In this document: positions 55,429 to 62,366 of the stretch, piece by piece
Position numbering within the stretch: the first letter of the stretch is position 1
Layout: every line of letters starts with the position of its first letter
Assembly: GCA_016875735.1 (NCBI GenBank)
Contig: VGOW01000016.1
Location: 1-64,000 of the forward strand
Source: Chloroflexota bacterium
GTDB lineage: Bacteria > Chloroflexota > Anaerolineae > Anaerolineales > VGOW01
Direction: 5' to 3'
Length of the DNA: 64,000 bases
The notes under the pieces: generated by a model
What the model was told of the DNA's origin: nothing
Databases searched by the model: none
The model's input: only the letters and a program-made list of their open reading frames with translations
Translations under genes and position numbers: made by a program

Positions 55429-55457
55429 TTGACTCCCCTATACCCCTATGCTATAGT
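55429..55457 (+). promoter_or_regulatory. Promoter of the peptide ABC transporter operon
   Basis: TTGACT (55429-55434) and TATAGT (55452-55457) are separated by exactly 17 nt, a strong sigma-70-like match. Predicted start is near 55464. Confidence 0.72.
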
Positions 55458-55673: not shown

Positions 55674-57626
55674 ATGCGTAATCACAAGAACGCGATGGTA
55701 GCCTTGGCTTTCCTCACCATCGCCAGCGTGTTGCTTGCCGCCTGCGGCACCCAAGTCGTGACACAGATCGTCGAGGTCACCAAAGAAGTTGAAGTCGTGC
55801 AGACTCAACTCGTCGAAGCGACGACCGTCGTCGAAGTCGAAGCCGCCTCATTCACCAAGCCGCATCCCCTTCTGGGCGACATTCGTGTTCGGCAAGGCAT
55901 CGCCTACTGCACCAACCGCCCCCAATTGATCGCCTCCGTGTATCCGTTCGTTGACGCAGAAGGGCAGCAGAAGCAGTTGATGGACACCAACATTCCCCGC
56001 GCCAGCTGGGCGGCCTACGACGGCCCCGAGATTCAGAAGTACCCCTTCGACGCCACAAAAGGTCAAGCCCTCTTTGATGAGGCTGGTTGGACTCTGGCCG
56101 AAGGCGCGACCTATCGCACCAATGCCGACGGCGATGAAATGAATCTCAAGTTCACCACCACCACCGCCGCCTTCCGCCAAACCTGGGCCGCTGTGTTCGA
56201 AAAGCAAATGGCCGCCTGCGGCCTCCGCATCATCCGCCTCCACGCTCCGGCTTCATGGTGGTTCGGCAGCACCACCGGCCTGCGCCATCGCGACTTCGAA
56301 CTCGGCGCTTACGCTTGGGTGGGCGAGACGGATCCCAAGGGACAGACTCTCTACGCTTGTAACCAGATCAACGTCCCCGAAAACGGCTGGGCTGGCCAGA
56401 ACTACATGGGCTGGTGTAACCAAGTCGCCAGCGACGCGATCAATGCGGCCAACAATACCCTTGTCCGCGAGGAGCGTATCGCGCACTACAAGACCTTCCA
56501 GATCGAGTTTGCCAAGGATATGGTGAGCCTGCCCGTGTTCCAACGCGCGGAAGGCAACGCCGCATCCTCGAATCTGGTCAACTTCAAACCCAGCGCCACC
56601 GAGTACTACACCTGGAACTCCTACGAGTGGGAACTCGCCGATGGCGGCGACACCCTGGTGTTGGCCCTTTCGCAAGAACCGGCCTCCATGTACAGCCTGA
56701 TCGAGTCGGCGGCTGTTCAGCGCACGGTCGGCTGGATGATCTTTGACTCCAGTATGTCGCAATACGACTGGGACTTTCAACCGGCGGCTGTCGCTGAACT
56801 CTCCAGCGTTGAGAATGGCATGATCCAGATCAACGAGGTTGAGGTGAAAGAAGGCGACCCAGTGGTGGATTACAGCGGTACGCCCACCGATTCCGAAGGC
56901 AACCTCCTCACCCTCACCTCCGGTCTCAAGGTCAAGACCTCTTCCGGCGAGGACGTTGAGTTCTCTGGCGGCACCGTCAAGATGAATCAGCTGGTGGCCA
57001 CCTATGAATTCCAACCCACCCTCACCTGGTCGGACGGCGAACCCGTGAAGAAAGCCGACTTTGAGTTGGCCTACAAGAACGACTGCGACCCGGCCTCCGG
57101 CGCGGTGGATTACAGCACCTGCCAGTCCATTCAGAGCGTGGATTTCACCAGCGACAACGAGTACACTGTCACCTATAAGCCGGGGTACATGAACTCTCTC
57201 AGCTTCATCCCGCCGATCGCTACCTACCCTTCGCACCAGGTGCTTTCAGACGGCCGCAAGCTGGCGGATGTCCCCACCACAGAGTGGTCCGGCCTGAAGG
57301 AGATCGCCGAGACCCCGCTGGGCTTTGGCCCGTATATCCTGACGAATTGGGAGAAGGGTGTGAAGCTCGAACTCACAGCCAACCCCTTCTATTGGCGCGG
57401 TGAGAACAAGGTCAAGAACATCACCATCTTGATCGTTCAGGATACCCAGCAGGCTGTGGCTCAACTGCTCAGCGGCGACGTGGATGTAATCGGCTCCGAG
57501 ACGTTGGGCGCCGGCGCCGAAGTGCAGACGGTTATCGATGCCCAGGCGGCAGGCGATCCGATTCAAGTCTTGATCGAGCCGAGCGCCACTTGGGAACACA
57601 TCGACATGAACCTGTTCGTGCCGTAA
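55674..57626 (+). CDS. ABC transporter substrate-binding lipoprotein (SBP_bac_5), lobes in swapped order
   Basis: 650 residues. A lipoprotein signal ends in LLAAC (C24), followed by a valine/glutamate-rich linker (VVTQIVEVTKEVEVVQ). The family normally starts with the LVLALSQEPASM strand and WSDGEPV, and later reaches the IRVRQGIAY block. Here the order is reversed: HPLLGDIRVRQGIAYCTNR, GQALFDEAGW and DFELGAYAW come first (about 60-320), then DTLVLALSQEPASM (from 326), LTWSDGEPVKKADF and LGFGPYILTNWEKG, ending WEHIDMNLFVP. The end would join the beginning in the canonical fold. It should capture peptides or similar solutes outside the membrane for the permeases encoded next. Confidence 0.88.
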   Translation: MRNHKNAMVALAFLTIASVLLAACGTQVVTQIVEVTKEVEVVQTQLVEATTVVEVEAASFTKPHPLLGDIRVRQGIAYCTNRPQLIASVYPFVDAEGQQKQLMDTNIPRASWAAYDGPEIQKYPFDATKGQALFDEAGWTLAEGATYRTNADGDEMNLKFTTTTAAFRQTWAAVFEKQMAACGLRIIRLHAPASWWFGSTTGLRHRDFELGAYAWVGETDPKGQTLYACNQINVPENGWAGQNYMGWCNQVASDAINAANNTLVREERIAHYKTFQIEFAKDMVSLPVFQRAEGNAASSNLVNFKPSATEYYTWNSYEWELADGGDTLVLALSQEPASMYSLIESAAVQRTVGWMIFDSSMSQYDWDFQPAAVAELSSVENGMIQINEVEVKEGDPVVDYSGTPTDSEGNLLTLTSGLKVKTSSGEDVEFSGGTVKMNQLVATYEFQPTLTWSDGEPVKKADFELAYKNDCDPASGAVDYSTCQSIQSVDFTSDNEYTVTYKPGYMNSLSFIPPIATYPSHQVLSDGRKLADVPTTEWSGLKEIAETPLGFGPYILTNWEKGVKLELTANPFYWRGENKVKNITILIVQDTQQAVAQLLSGDVDVIGSETLGAGAEVQTVIDAQAAGDPIQVLIEPSATWEHIDMNLFVP

Positions 57627-57766: not shown

Positions 57767-57796
57767 GCAGGCGCAACGGCAGTTTGTTGCGCCTGC
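57767..57796 (+). promoter_or_regulatory. Intercistronic hairpin after the substrate-binding protein gene
   Basis: A perfect 11-bp stem (GCAGGCGCAAC at 57767-57777, GTTGCGCCTGC at 57786-57796) with an 8-nt loop and no T run. It probably protects or partly terminates the message so that the binding protein is made in excess over the permease. Confidence 0.65.
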
Positions 57797-57858: not shown

Positions 57859-59055
57859 ATGTTTAACTACCTCATCCGCCGTCTGTTCCAAATGGCGATC
57901 GTGCTGTTCCTATCCACGATGGCCTCGTACGCCTTGCTCAACTTGGCGCCGGGCGGCCCCCTCACTTTCCTCACCTCCGTTCAACGGAGAATGAATCAAG
58001 AAGACATTGCCCGCGTCCGCGCCTATTTCGAGCTAGACCTCTTCCTGCCGGTGCGATTCTCGCGCTGGCTCACGGGCTTTCCGCGAGGACCCATCACTGT
58101 GGGCGGCCAAACCTATTTTGCCGATTTCGTGGTAGGGTGCCGCCAACCCAGAGAAGTCGAAATACGCTACTCGGACGGCAGGCGAGAACTCAAAACGGTG
58201 GGTTGCCGCGAAGGCCAAGATGTCACGCTGGCCGATTTGGTGGATCGGCCTCGCAGCAGCAAAGGCATCATCTTCGGTGACCTCGGCAACTCATGGCAAA
58301 TCACCCGCGATCGTCCGGTGTCGGCTGTCGTGGTCTCCCGGCTGCCTCGCACCCTCCAATTGATGATGATCTCCCTTGTCCTGTCCATCATCATCGGCAT
58401 CCCCATTGGCGTGATCTCTGCTGTTCGCCAGTATTCGGCGTTCGATTACACCGTCACCTCGATGGCTTTCTTTGGCTCCTCGATGCCCACCTTCTTCTTT
58501 GCCCTGCTCATGATTCTGATTTTCAGCATCACCTTCAAAAGGATGGGCTGGGTGTATTTGCCGCCCGGCAACGCCGAATCGGTAAAAGATTATGTGATAC
58601 CCTTCATCGGCGCGGTTGATGCCGGCTCGTTGAAGGACAATATTCTCCATTTGATCATGCCGGTCAGCGTGCTGACGTTGTTCAACGTGGCCGGCTGGAG
58701 CCGCTACGTGCGAACCAGCATGCTCGAAGTTCTGCGGCAAGATTATGTGCGCACGGCGCGAGCCAAAGGACTCATCGAACGTGTGGTGATCGCCAAACAC
58801 GCCCTTCGCAACGCGCTGATCCCGTTCATTACATTGGTCGTGTTCTCCATCCCCGCCGCATTCGGCGGCGCCATCATCACCGAAACCGTTTTCAATTGGC
58901 CGGGCATGGGGCGGCTCTATTTCGACGCGCTGGGGCGCACCGATTACCCGGTGGCCATGGCCCTGCTCCTCATCACCGCAGTCCTCACCGTCGTCGCCAC
59001 CCTCGTATGCGATGTTCTGTATACGGTGGTGGATCCACGCATTCGGTTGAGCTAG
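57859..59055 (+). CDS. ABC transporter permease, DppB/OppB type
   Basis: 398 residues, longer than the usual 310-340 because of an extracytoplasmic insertion (about residues 74-135) containing two cysteines (VGCRQP and VGCREG) that could form a disulfide. Six hydrophobic helices and the BPD_transp_1 coupling motif near ARAKGLIERVVIAKHALRNALIP are present. The N-terminal YLIRRLFQMAIVLFLSTMASYALLNLAPG is characteristic. It follows the substrate-binding gene after 232 nt containing only the hairpin. Confidence 0.92.
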   Translation: MFNYLIRRLFQMAIVLFLSTMASYALLNLAPGGPLTFLTSVQRRMNQEDIARVRAYFELDLFLPVRFSRWLTGFPRGPITVGGQTYFADFVVGCRQPREVEIRYSDGRRELKTVGCREGQDVTLADLVDRPRSSKGIIFGDLGNSWQITRDRPVSAVVVSRLPRTLQLMMISLVLSIIIGIPIGVISAVRQYSAFDYTVTSMAFFGSSMPTFFFALLMILIFSITFKRMGWVYLPPGNAESVKDYVIPFIGAVDAGSLKDNILHLIMPVSVLTLFNVAGWSRYVRTSMLEVLRQDYVRTARAKGLIERVVIAKHALRNALIPFITLVVFSIPAAFGGAIITETVFNWPGMGRLYFDALGRTDYPVAMALLLITAVLTVVATLVCDVLYTVVDPRIRLS

Positions 59056-59175: not shown

Positions 59176-60180
59176 ATGACCACTTCAACCATGCCCAGAG
59201 CCATTGACTTAGCCGCCGCGGAGGCGATGCCCGAAGAAGTCAGTCAGTTTCGGGTTATCCTGCGGCGTTTTCTGCGCCACAAATTGGCTGTTGCTTCGCT
59301 ATTCGTTTTGGCGGCCATCGTCCTCATCGCCATTTTGGCCCCGGTCATCTCGCCCTTCGACCCCACCGATATCGAAGTGGGCAACGATTTCTTGGCTCCC
59401 GGCAGTGTGGGGAGAGACGGCGTGCGCATTCACTATCTCGGCACCGACACCATCGGGCGAGACTATTGGTCGCGCATCACCTATGCGGCGCGCATTTCGC
59501 TCACCGTGGCCGTCACCGCTCAAGTGGCCAGCGTCATCATCGGTATCCTCGTCGGCTCTATTTCCGGCTACCTCGGCGGCACCGTGGATGCGGTCGTCAT
59601 GCGCGGCGTGGAGTTCATGCTCACCATTCCACAGCTGCCGCTGTTGCTCATCATTTCCTCGCTGGTCATTCAGAATCAAGAAGCCATCCCCGTGCCGGAA
59701 GTGCTCACCAACTTCATGGCTTGGCTGTTGCTCATTCAGCCGCGCGATGCCGTGCAAGTAGTTCTGATCATCGCTATCCTCGTCTCCTTCGGCTGGCTGC
59801 AGGATTCCCGCCTCATGCGCGGGGTGGTGCTGTCGGTGAAGGAGCAGACTTTCACCGAAGCCTCGCGGGCGCTGGGCGCTTCTGACCTCCGCATTATCCT
59901 GAGCCACATGATCCCCAACGCCATTGCGCCGATGATCGTGAGCGCCAGTCTCGGTCTGTCGGGCTTCATTATTTACGAAGCGGCTCTCAGTTTTCTGGGT
60001 TTGGGGATTCAGGATCCGACTCCCACCTGGGGCAACATGCTTTCGGCGGCGCAGAGCTTCATGTTCCAGCATCCGTGGCTGCCGCTGGTGTCGGGCACGC
60101 CTATCTTTTTGTGCAGCCTGGCGTTCAATTTCGTCGGCGACGGCGTGCGCGACGCGCTCGACCCGCGCCTCAAGCTGTAA
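59176..60180 (+). CDS. ABC transporter permease, DppC/OppC type
   Basis: 334 residues with the OppC N-terminal helix (FLRHKLAVASLFVLAAIVLIAILAPVI), the PFDPTDIE loop, the phrase GTDTIGRDYWSRI and the coupling motif EASRALGASDLRIILSHMIPNAI. It forms the second half of the membrane channel with the DppB-like protein. A longer extracytoplasmic loop (EAIPVPEVLTNFM) is present in the middle. The substrate specificity (peptide, oligosaccharide or other) cannot be told. Confidence 0.92.
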   Translation: MTTSTMPRAIDLAAAEAMPEEVSQFRVILRRFLRHKLAVASLFVLAAIVLIAILAPVISPFDPTDIEVGNDFLAPGSVGRDGVRIHYLGTDTIGRDYWSRITYAARISLTVAVTAQVASVIIGILVGSISGYLGGTVDAVVMRGVEFMLTIPQLPLLLIISSLVIQNQEAIPVPEVLTNFMAWLLLIQPRDAVQVVLIIAILVSFGWLQDSRLMRGVVLSVKEQTFTEASRALGASDLRIILSHMIPNAIAPMIVSASLGLSGFIIYEAALSFLGLGIQDPTPTWGNMLSAAQSFMFQHPWLPLVSGTPIFLCSLAFNFVGDGVRDALDPRLKL

Positions 60181-60272: not shown

Positions 60273-61298
60273 ATGGCTGAGGTACAACTATCTGCCAACG
60301 GCGATAATCTATTGGATGTCCGCAATCTCAAAACATATTTCTACACCGAAGATGGTGTGGTCAAAGCAGTCGATGGCGTTGACTTCTCCGTCAAGCGCGG
60401 CGAAGTGCTGGGGTTGGTGGGCGAGTCGGGCTGCGGAAAGAGCGTCACCTCGTTGTCCATCATGCGGCTCATCGGCATTCCGGGCAAGGTGGTCGAAGGC
60501 GAGATCGTGTTCGACGGCAAGAACATCCTTGGCCTCCCCGAAAGCGAGATGGTGCACATTCGAGGCAACCGCATCTCGATGATCTTTCAACAACCGCAGT
60601 CGTCGCTCAACCCGGTGTTCAAAGTCGGCGATCAGATCGCCGAAGTGCTGAACATCCATCAAGCGTTGGGCAAAAAGCCCGGTTGGGATCGGGCCATCGA
60701 ACTTCTGCGGATGGTGGGCATCTCCGACGCCGAACGCCGCGCCCACGCTTTTCCGCACGAGCTCTCTGGCGGCATGGCCCAGCGCGTGATGATCGCTATG
60801 GCTCTGGCCTGCGTGCCCGAACTGCTCATCGCCGACGAGCCGACTACCGCGCTCGACGTGACCATCCAAGCGCAGATTCTCGATCTCATGCGCGACCTGC
60901 GCGACAAAGTGAACGCCTCTATCATCTTCATCACTCACGATCTCGGCGTGGTGGCCGAGATGTGCGAGCGCGTGGCAGTGATGTACGCCGGGCAGATCGT
61001 GGAGCAAACCGATGTGCGCACGTTGTTCGCCGAGCCGCGCCACCCGTATACGCAGGGCCTCATCGGCTCCATTCCCGTGCTCGGCATTGTGAAAGACTCC
61101 CTCGAAGTCATCCCCGGCAGTGTGCCCAATCTCATCAACCTTCCGCCGGGGTGCCGATTCGCTCCCCGTTGCCGGGCGCGCGTCGAGCATAATCTCACTA
61201 TCTGCCCCGAACGTATGCCCGAGCTCAAACCCATTGCCGAAGGCCATACGGTGCGCTGTTGGTTGTACCACAGCACGGAAGGGCTGGCGCCGAAATAA
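60273..61298 (+). CDS. ABC transporter ATP-binding protein, DppD/OppD type
   Basis: 341 residues. Walker [11 protein letters not shown]-loop [12 protein letters not shown], signature LSGGMAQRV, Walker [14 protein letters not shown] and the H-loop ITHDLGVV are complete; the C-terminal cysteine-containing oligopeptide domain ([22 protein letters not shown]) binds an iron-sulfur cluster or helps coupling in relatives. The ATG at 60273 is preceded by GAGGGAG; the upstream frame is noise. Confidence 0.94.
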
Positions 61299-61334: not shown

Positions 61335-62321
61335 GTGTTTGAAGAAAAGAAAACCTACGAACTAGTGCAGGTCAAGAATCTGGTCAAATACTTTCCGGTG
61401 CGCGGCGGGCTGCTTCAGCGCGTGGTGGCGCATGTGCGCGCGGTCGAAGATGTGTCGTTCACCGTGCGCGAGGGCGAGACGTTCGGTCTGGTGGGCGAGT
61501 CGGGTTGCGGCAAAACGACCGTGGGCCGGACAATCCTGCGGTTGATCCCGGCCACCTCAGGCCAAGTAGTGTTCGACGGGCAGGATGTGTTCAATCTCAA
61601 CGCCCGCGATCTGAAGGCCCTGCGCCGCAATATGCAGATCATCTTTCAAGACCCGTTCTCTTCCCTCGACCCGCGCATGCCGGTAGGCGAAAGCGTGGCC
61701 GAGGGTTTGCTCGTTCACAACATCGGCAAGACGAGCAAAGAGCGTTTCGAAGTCGTCATCAACACCCTGCGCAAAGTCGGCCTCGAAGATTACCACGCCC
61801 GCCGCTACCCCCACGAATTCTCCGGCGGCCAGCGCCAGCGCATTGGCATTGCCCGCGCCCTCGCCCTGCGCCCCAAATTCATCGTCTGCGATGAGCCGGT
61901 GTCGGCGCTCGATGTGTCCATTCAAGCGCAGGTGCTCAACATCCTCAAAGAGCTTCAGCGCGAATTCAACCTCACCTATCTCTTCGTCGCCCACAACCTC
62001 AGCGTCGTCGAGCACATCTCCGATCGCATCGGCGTGATGTATCTCGGCAAGATGGTCGAACTCACCGGGCGCGATGAATTGTTCCGCAAACCCCTGCACC
62101 CCTACACGCAGGCCCTCCTCTCCGCCATTCCGGTTCCCGATCCCAACCTCAAGCGGGAACGCATCATCCTCAAAGGCGATGTGCCCAGCCCGCTCCGGCC
62201 TCCGTCGGGGTGCCGCTTCCACCCCCGATGCCCGGCAGCCCTCGAACACTGTTCGCAAAAGGAGCCGGTGTTCAAGGAAGCAGCGCCCGATCATTGGGTG
62301 GCCTGCTGGCGAGTCGAATAG
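61335..62321 (+). CDS. ABC transporter ATP-binding protein, DppF/OppF type
   Basis: 328 residues. [30 protein letters not shown] at the N-terminus, Walker [46 protein letters not shown] and the C-terminal [17 protein letters not shown] identify the partner ATPase. It is the last gene of the five-gene transporter operon and is followed by an intrinsic terminator. The GTG start lies 36 nt after the previous stop. Confidence 0.94.
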
Positions 62322-62343: not shown

Positions 62344-62366
62344 GAGCCTGCGTTGCAGGCTCTTTT
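62344..62366 (+). terminator. Intrinsic terminator of the ABC transporter operon
   Basis: A perfect 8-bp stem (GAGCCTGC at 62344-62351, GCAGGCTC at 62355-62362) with loop GTT, followed by TTTT. The -35 of the next promoter lies within its right half. Confidence 0.85.

Follow-up and report, generated by a model that had tools for sequence, protein, structure and literature searches.

Natural circular permutation in a probable cluster C substrate-binding lipoprotein heading an ABC importer operon in Chloroflexota

Natural circular permutation of the substrate-binding protein (SBP) of an ABC importer has been described for TpMglB-2 (Tp0684) of Treponema pallidum, classed as 'Type Ic / Cluster Bc' (PMC4990184), and this was the sole natural SBP permutation found in the open-access full text searched. 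Binding and closure of TpMglB-2 are normal, with no obvious mechanical advantage of the permutation according to its authors (PMC4990184). For the SBP_bac_5 family and for Chloroflexota no natural permutation was found in the same open-access full text, subscription papers and preprints lying outside the search. In E. coli MppA the hinge comprises residues 286-287 and 507-508, with residues 288-506 making up the C-lobe (PMC6022919), while in the E. coli Dpp system the scoop motif in the TM1-TM2 loop of DppB enters the cleft of DppA and contacts both lobes (PMC12136057).

The window analysed here is a stretch of 64,000 nucleotides of a Chloroflexota bacterium (contig VGOW01000016.1, positions 1 to 64,000), in which an SBP gene preceded by a Shine-Dalgarno-like AGGAGGAG heads an operon (Table 1). 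The protein falls within Pfam SBP_bac_5 (PF00496; E=1.5e-41, 143.2 bits against a curated cut-off of 32.4), matching in two stretches of which the best aligns residues 437-613 with profile positions 14-181, and stays below the NCBIfam equivalog cut-offs for Opp4A (112 vs 650 bits), NikA (59 vs 393) and DppA (39 vs 1005). A signal peptide with lipobox Cys24, a pattern present in most homologues, marks it as a lipoprotein, and the two permease and two ATPase genes adjoining it mark the system as an Opp/Dpp importer. The original prediction held that the conserved blocks of the family stand here in swapped order. Pfam, NCBIfam and PDB sequence searches concur, with residues ~60-320 corresponding to the second half of relatives and residues 323-648 to the first; against the best solved relative, 2d5w, residues 67-318 match 322-581 of the chain and residues 551-648 match 210-311. 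The collinear order of N-lobe, C-lobe and N-lobe end of cluster C SBPs is absent, the halves being swapped, and because of this swap the protein is a variant of cluster C and not an ordinary member. It is best read, with a probability of about 0.88, as a cluster C (Opp/Dpp type) lipoprotein SBP that has undergone natural circular permutation and serves the five-gene ABC importer directly downstream.

Table 1. Positions of the operon, its genes and the segments of the permuted SBP within the window
Feature	Coordinates	Strand	Basis or remark
Sigma-70-like promoter match, TTGACT-17-TATAGT, upstream of operon	55429..55457	+	consensus scan alone
SBP ORF, 650 aa	55674-57626	+	SBP_bac_5 lipoprotein
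Signal peptide and lipobox LAAC, lipidation site Cys24	55674..55745	+	sequence
Val/Glu/Thr linker of low complexity (~36 aa), residues 25-59	55746..55850	+	disordered in model
C-lobe (old second lobe, now first), residues 60-292; RVRQGIAY, FDEAGW, DFELGAY	55851..56549	+	E. coli MppA domain 2 mapping
Hinge strand 2, residues 293-294	56550..56555	+	aligned to MppA hinge 507-508
N-lobe, residues 295-633, one contiguous insert; LALSQEPASM, WSDGEPV, GFGPYILTNWEKG	56556..57572	+	
Fusion of old C-terminus and old N-terminus, residues 322-326	56637..56651	+	normal-order orthologue alignment
Hinge strand 1, residues 634-635	57573..57578	+	aligned to MppA hinge 286-287
C-terminal strand WEHIDMNL, residues 636-650, back to C-lobe, new C-terminus	57579..57623	+	homologue C-termini; model strand 630-645
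Hairpin, 11 bp perfect, between SBP gene and permB	57767..57796	+	surrounding 86 nt z -5.35
permB, DppB-like permease	57859..59055	+	
Extra periplasmic permB segment, TM1-TM2 (scoop-motif) loop, about residues 74-139, invariant Cys94 and Cys116	58078..58275	+	
permC, DppC-like permease	59176..60180	+	
atpD, DppD/OppD-like ATPase	60273..61298	+	likely start; listed ORF from 60075
atpF, DppF/OppF-like ATPase	61335..62321	+	
Terminator-like hairpin, operon end	62344..62362	+	consensus scan

A reference HMM was built from 38 Chloroflexota SBPs of normal order. Against it, the native protein matched in reversed order (51-322 to HMM 363-630, then 324-647 to HMM 85-372), while the same protein un-permuted, that is cut and rejoined at the old ends, gave a single match spanning HMM 85-629. 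In 81/81 members of the permuted family the un-permuted form gave one full-length match scoring above the native sequence, with a median gain of 16 bits; in nine of them an extra short signal/linker match masked the reversal in the automatic count, the halves being reversed there too. The window SBP is a true circular permutation, and the predicted block order is borne out by the profile and PDB matches, by un-permutation and by 80 further homologues. Permuted order is in general a known signature of misassembly, and the gene could in principle be an assembly or annotation artefact, a false join between halves taken from one or two ordinary SBP genes. The 80 homologues come from independent assemblies, including those of the isolates Chloroflexus islandicus and Bellilinea caldifistulae, and keep the same order, the end residues and the operon, which excludes the assembly rearrangement that the original prediction had named as its possible undoing and leaves an artefact vanishingly unlikely. 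A head-to-tail chimera of halves from two SBP subfamilies, formed by domain shuffling, is improbable: two SBP genes duplicated in tandem could have been the source and several relatives do have a normal-order SBP directly upstream, but the halves sum to exactly one protein with no segment missing or doubled, the un-permuted whole outscores its two parts in every member and the structure model is confident throughout.

Alignment to E. coli MppA assigns residues 60-292 and 636-650 to the C-lobe and 295-633 to the N-lobe, with both hinge strands kept and the new chain ends on the C-lobe directly past hinge strand 1. The order of segments originally claimed stands, while the permutation site has been refined to a cut outside the hinge; a cut through one of the hinge strands was considered and ruled out since the mapping retains both. 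In normal-order relatives the cut site is a loop of variable length, and homologues of the window SBP end at, or shortly past, TWEH-DMNL. The old termini are fused almost without a linker, through few residues (NSYEWELA-DGG-DTLVLALSQEP), and by the same mapping the lipid anchor lies on the C-lobe, not the N-lobe. Six cysteines are invariant across the permuted-family alignment A1 (79, 182, 229, 248, 471 and 483 in P0001 numbering) and are likely to form disulfides, C229 and C248 being found in some normal-order orthologues too. A different ORF (L006; G000:C45:3691-3861), in a 453-aa open frame, has its signal and Val/Glu/Thr linker in common with P0001 (54% over residues 6-57), the common N-terminal segment probably being a reused lipoprotein linker.

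An AlphaFold2 model computed from an 81-member alignment of permuted sequences only (pLDDT 90.5, pTM 0.84) is poor solely at the signal and linker, with pLDDT below 50 at residues 20-54, and a closed-up chain is plausible because the model is confident from about residue 57 to 650. A long strand (630-645) closes the modelled chain and the old termini are joined by few residues in a region of pLDDT above 90, with the old termini plausibly near enough to join. In Foldseek searches against the PDB the top matches of the model were all cluster C SBPs (2d5w, AppA, NikZ, NikA), aligned over 230-337 columns with TM about 0.3, while a normal-order Chloroflexota SBP used as control, its own model being moderate (pLDDT 66), aligned over 530-637 columns to the same targets with E down to 1e-30. 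A sequential aligner confronted with a permutation would be expected to align just half of even a confidently modelled chain. Given these cluster C matches and the alignment of both hinge segments, a cluster C fold with a two-strand hinge is predicted. The structure prediction proposed as a check has accordingly returned a confident model and not the loss of the classic fold that would have told against a permutation, and closure of the old termini, as originally claimed, is supported by the homologues, HMM un-permutation, trees and model together.

A pattern scan of 84,980 species genomes identified 118 relatives, and the best 80 of the 118 are all permuted, with 44-78% identity, and all from Chloroflexota wherever a phylum is given in the record, spanning Anaerolineales, Caldilineales, Thermoflexales and Chloroflexales with Roseiflexaceae. 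The suggestion that Chloroflexota may have similar proteins is supported, and the proposed search for the block order and its taxonomic range places it in that phylum wherever one is named. The patterns were short and taken from the window SBP, such that distant permuted forms in other phyla could escape, and phyla beyond Chloroflexota were covered by this genome-contig scan alone besides a plasmid search. In that plasmid search, aimed at permuted copies outside the phylum, a single match covered most of the query (507 codons, in two pieces); a permuted protein would need more length, and the match was read as an ordinary SBP. The remaining matches listed span one half each. Permuted SBPs occur in 43/400 sampled Chloroflexota genomes, in the class of the window and one other class. 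In a quick tree (no bootstrap) of un-permuted sequences and the 38 normal SBPs, the permuted proteins form one clade (SH-aLRT 100), and on the trees the permutation appears as one event that has become fixed throughout the permuted family, in both Anaerolineae and Chloroflexia. One divergent permuted paralogue shows 38% identity (L127:3851-5902, +), with no permease of this operon's type found within its 10-kb stretch, and another has an extra C-terminal domain past WEHIDMNL in an 822 aa open frame (L126:2535-5000, -), with no permease gene found within its 7-kb stretch. In genome G266 the permuted SBP is split into two ORFs (L125:2051-4250, -), with the break close to the old fusion point and within a conserved stretch, TEYY. 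A natural two-chain SBP was rejected there, the second ORF having no signal peptide and the break lying inside the conserved TEYY, and the break is most likely a frameshift.

The gene order SBP-permB-permC-atpD-atpF is kept in most permuted systems with flanks examined, and a normal-order SBP heads the same order in L130, L131, L132, L135, L137 and L140, and in L123 as far as the stretch extends. In the permB tree the permeases of permuted systems form a single clade (99), nested in a larger one (99) that also takes in the normal systems except L140, which places the origin of the permutation in a Chloroflexota transporter lineage with normal-order SBPs. A sensor or adhesin with a borrowed SBP fold, rather than a transport receptor, is very unlikely, being consistent with a few permuted paralogues without an adjacent permease, one of which carries a further C-terminal domain (L126, L127), but at odds with the complete five-gene importer operon headed by the window gene and most homologues. 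Ligand capture and delivery is supported by this complete operon together with family membership. The residues for dipeptide binding in DppA (R383 and D436, E. coli numbering) align with L158 and a gap, and are unconserved in Chloroflexota whether the protein is permuted or normal, which makes a simple dipeptide receptor unlikely; with 2d5w and AppA the nearest solved relatives, oligopeptide-like solutes are slightly favoured as the ligand.

Additional normal-order SBP genes accompany some of the operons. In L012, L013, L016, L055, L062 and L082 such a gene lies immediately upstream of the permuted one and may encode another receptor that feeds this permease; the window genome has a relative of it on another contig (G000:C25). 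In L046, L130, L131, L132 and L135 the gene after atpF, the final ATPase gene, encodes a normal-order SBP, which points to some systems having two receptors. Of 69 relatives in which an intergenic gap separates the SBP gene from permB, 36 have a perfect hairpin there of 8 bp or more, the sequences differing, and it possibly acts in partial termination or mRNA protection to yield more SBP than permease.

The permease encoded by permB differs between permuted and normal-order systems. By alignment, its TM1-TM2 loop is 92-109 aa long in permuted systems, with one of 201 (n=71), and its two cysteines are invariant in 71/71, while the loop spans 40-76 aa (median 43) in normal-order neighbours, with L123 (212 aa) the sole exception, and 39-70 aa in unassigned paralogues. 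The loop of L123 (3326-4870, +) is different and is apparently an independent expansion of the scoop region. The extra segment of the permuted systems lies after the scoop region and before TM2, where it would offer a matching surface for the re-tethered SBP. As both traits changed on one branch, the association of permutation and loop counts as a single event and not as repeated evidence, and the insert may have nothing to do with the permutation.

By sequence, the N-lobe of the normal protein supplies both chain ends with the C-lobe as one insert, and in the permuted SBP the C-lobe supplies both ends with the N-lobe as the insert and both hinge strands kept. The permuted SBP occupies the operon slot of the normal-order SBP of related Chloroflexota. 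In the mechanism proposed, it would still close like a Venus flytrap on its ligand, probably an oligopeptide-like solute, for delivery to permB and permC. An anchor departing from the C-lobe would have the SBP approach the permease from the opposite side, with the enlarged, disulfide-like permB loop beside the scoop motif as the matching change in the permease. The C-lobe anchor and the cysteine-paired loop give indirect support to the altered docking on the permease that the original prediction suggested as a possibility. Duplication, fusion and truncation is the textbook route to circular permutation and may account for the origin, with no intermediate of this route seen. Engineered permutants of binding proteins often retain function, and the permutation could be neutral, with anchoring, docking and transport unchanged from ordinary Dpp/Opp systems and an unrelated insert added to permB. 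Such neutrality, for which the normal binding and closure of TpMglB-2 (PMC4990184) also speaks, falls just short of an even chance; the conserved exact end, the linker, roughly constant in many members, and the permB insert and its invariant cysteines across the family suggest constraint instead.

An ancient, single-origin permutation in an Opp/Dpp-type family, kept over a large part of Chloroflexota, would be new, as would a partner permB with an enlarged two-cysteine TM1-TM2 loop throughout the permuted systems. That these amount to a phylum-specific class of ABC importer, with inverted receptor topology, a tether on the opposite lobe, a co-evolved disulfide-bonded scoop-loop extension and a different geometry of docking or release, is put forward tentatively, the odds being somewhat against it. 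The role of the tether-bearing lobe in docking becomes testable, with non-permuted operons nearby in the phylum as a built-in control, and biosensors based on permuted SBPs gain a stable natural scaffold. A generic annotation name conceals the permuted SBP in pipelines.

Compared with SBP_bac_5 proteins of cluster C (the Thermus thermophilus oligopeptide-binding protein 2d5w, AppA 1xoc, NikA and DppA), the window SBP is alike in family score, conserved blocks, operon partners and Foldseek fold class, and differs in its permuted halves, in the lipid anchor on the C-lobe and in the unconserved R383/D436. The E. coli DppABCDF system has the same five-gene architecture and its DppB scoop aligns with the scoop region of permB, but DppA is soluble and of normal order and DppB has no extra loop segment (PMC12136057). 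The closest Chloroflexota operons (L130, L131, L132, L135, L137, L140 and L123) share the gene order, a close permB and the SBP slot; their SBP is unpermuted and the permB loop is 43-62 aa, apart from L123 with its different insert. TpMglB-2, the one clear precedent in the searched literature and from another structural cluster, is likewise a naturally permuted lipoprotein SBP of an ABC importer kept within a bacterial group, but is of cluster B (sugar type) with a fourth hinge crossing added and a poorly conserved permuted part (PMC4990184). The window SBP does not fall into this cluster B sugar-binding type, the fold and sequence matches listed being to cluster C, and unlike TpMglB-2 it keeps both hinge strands and has two clearly homologous halves.
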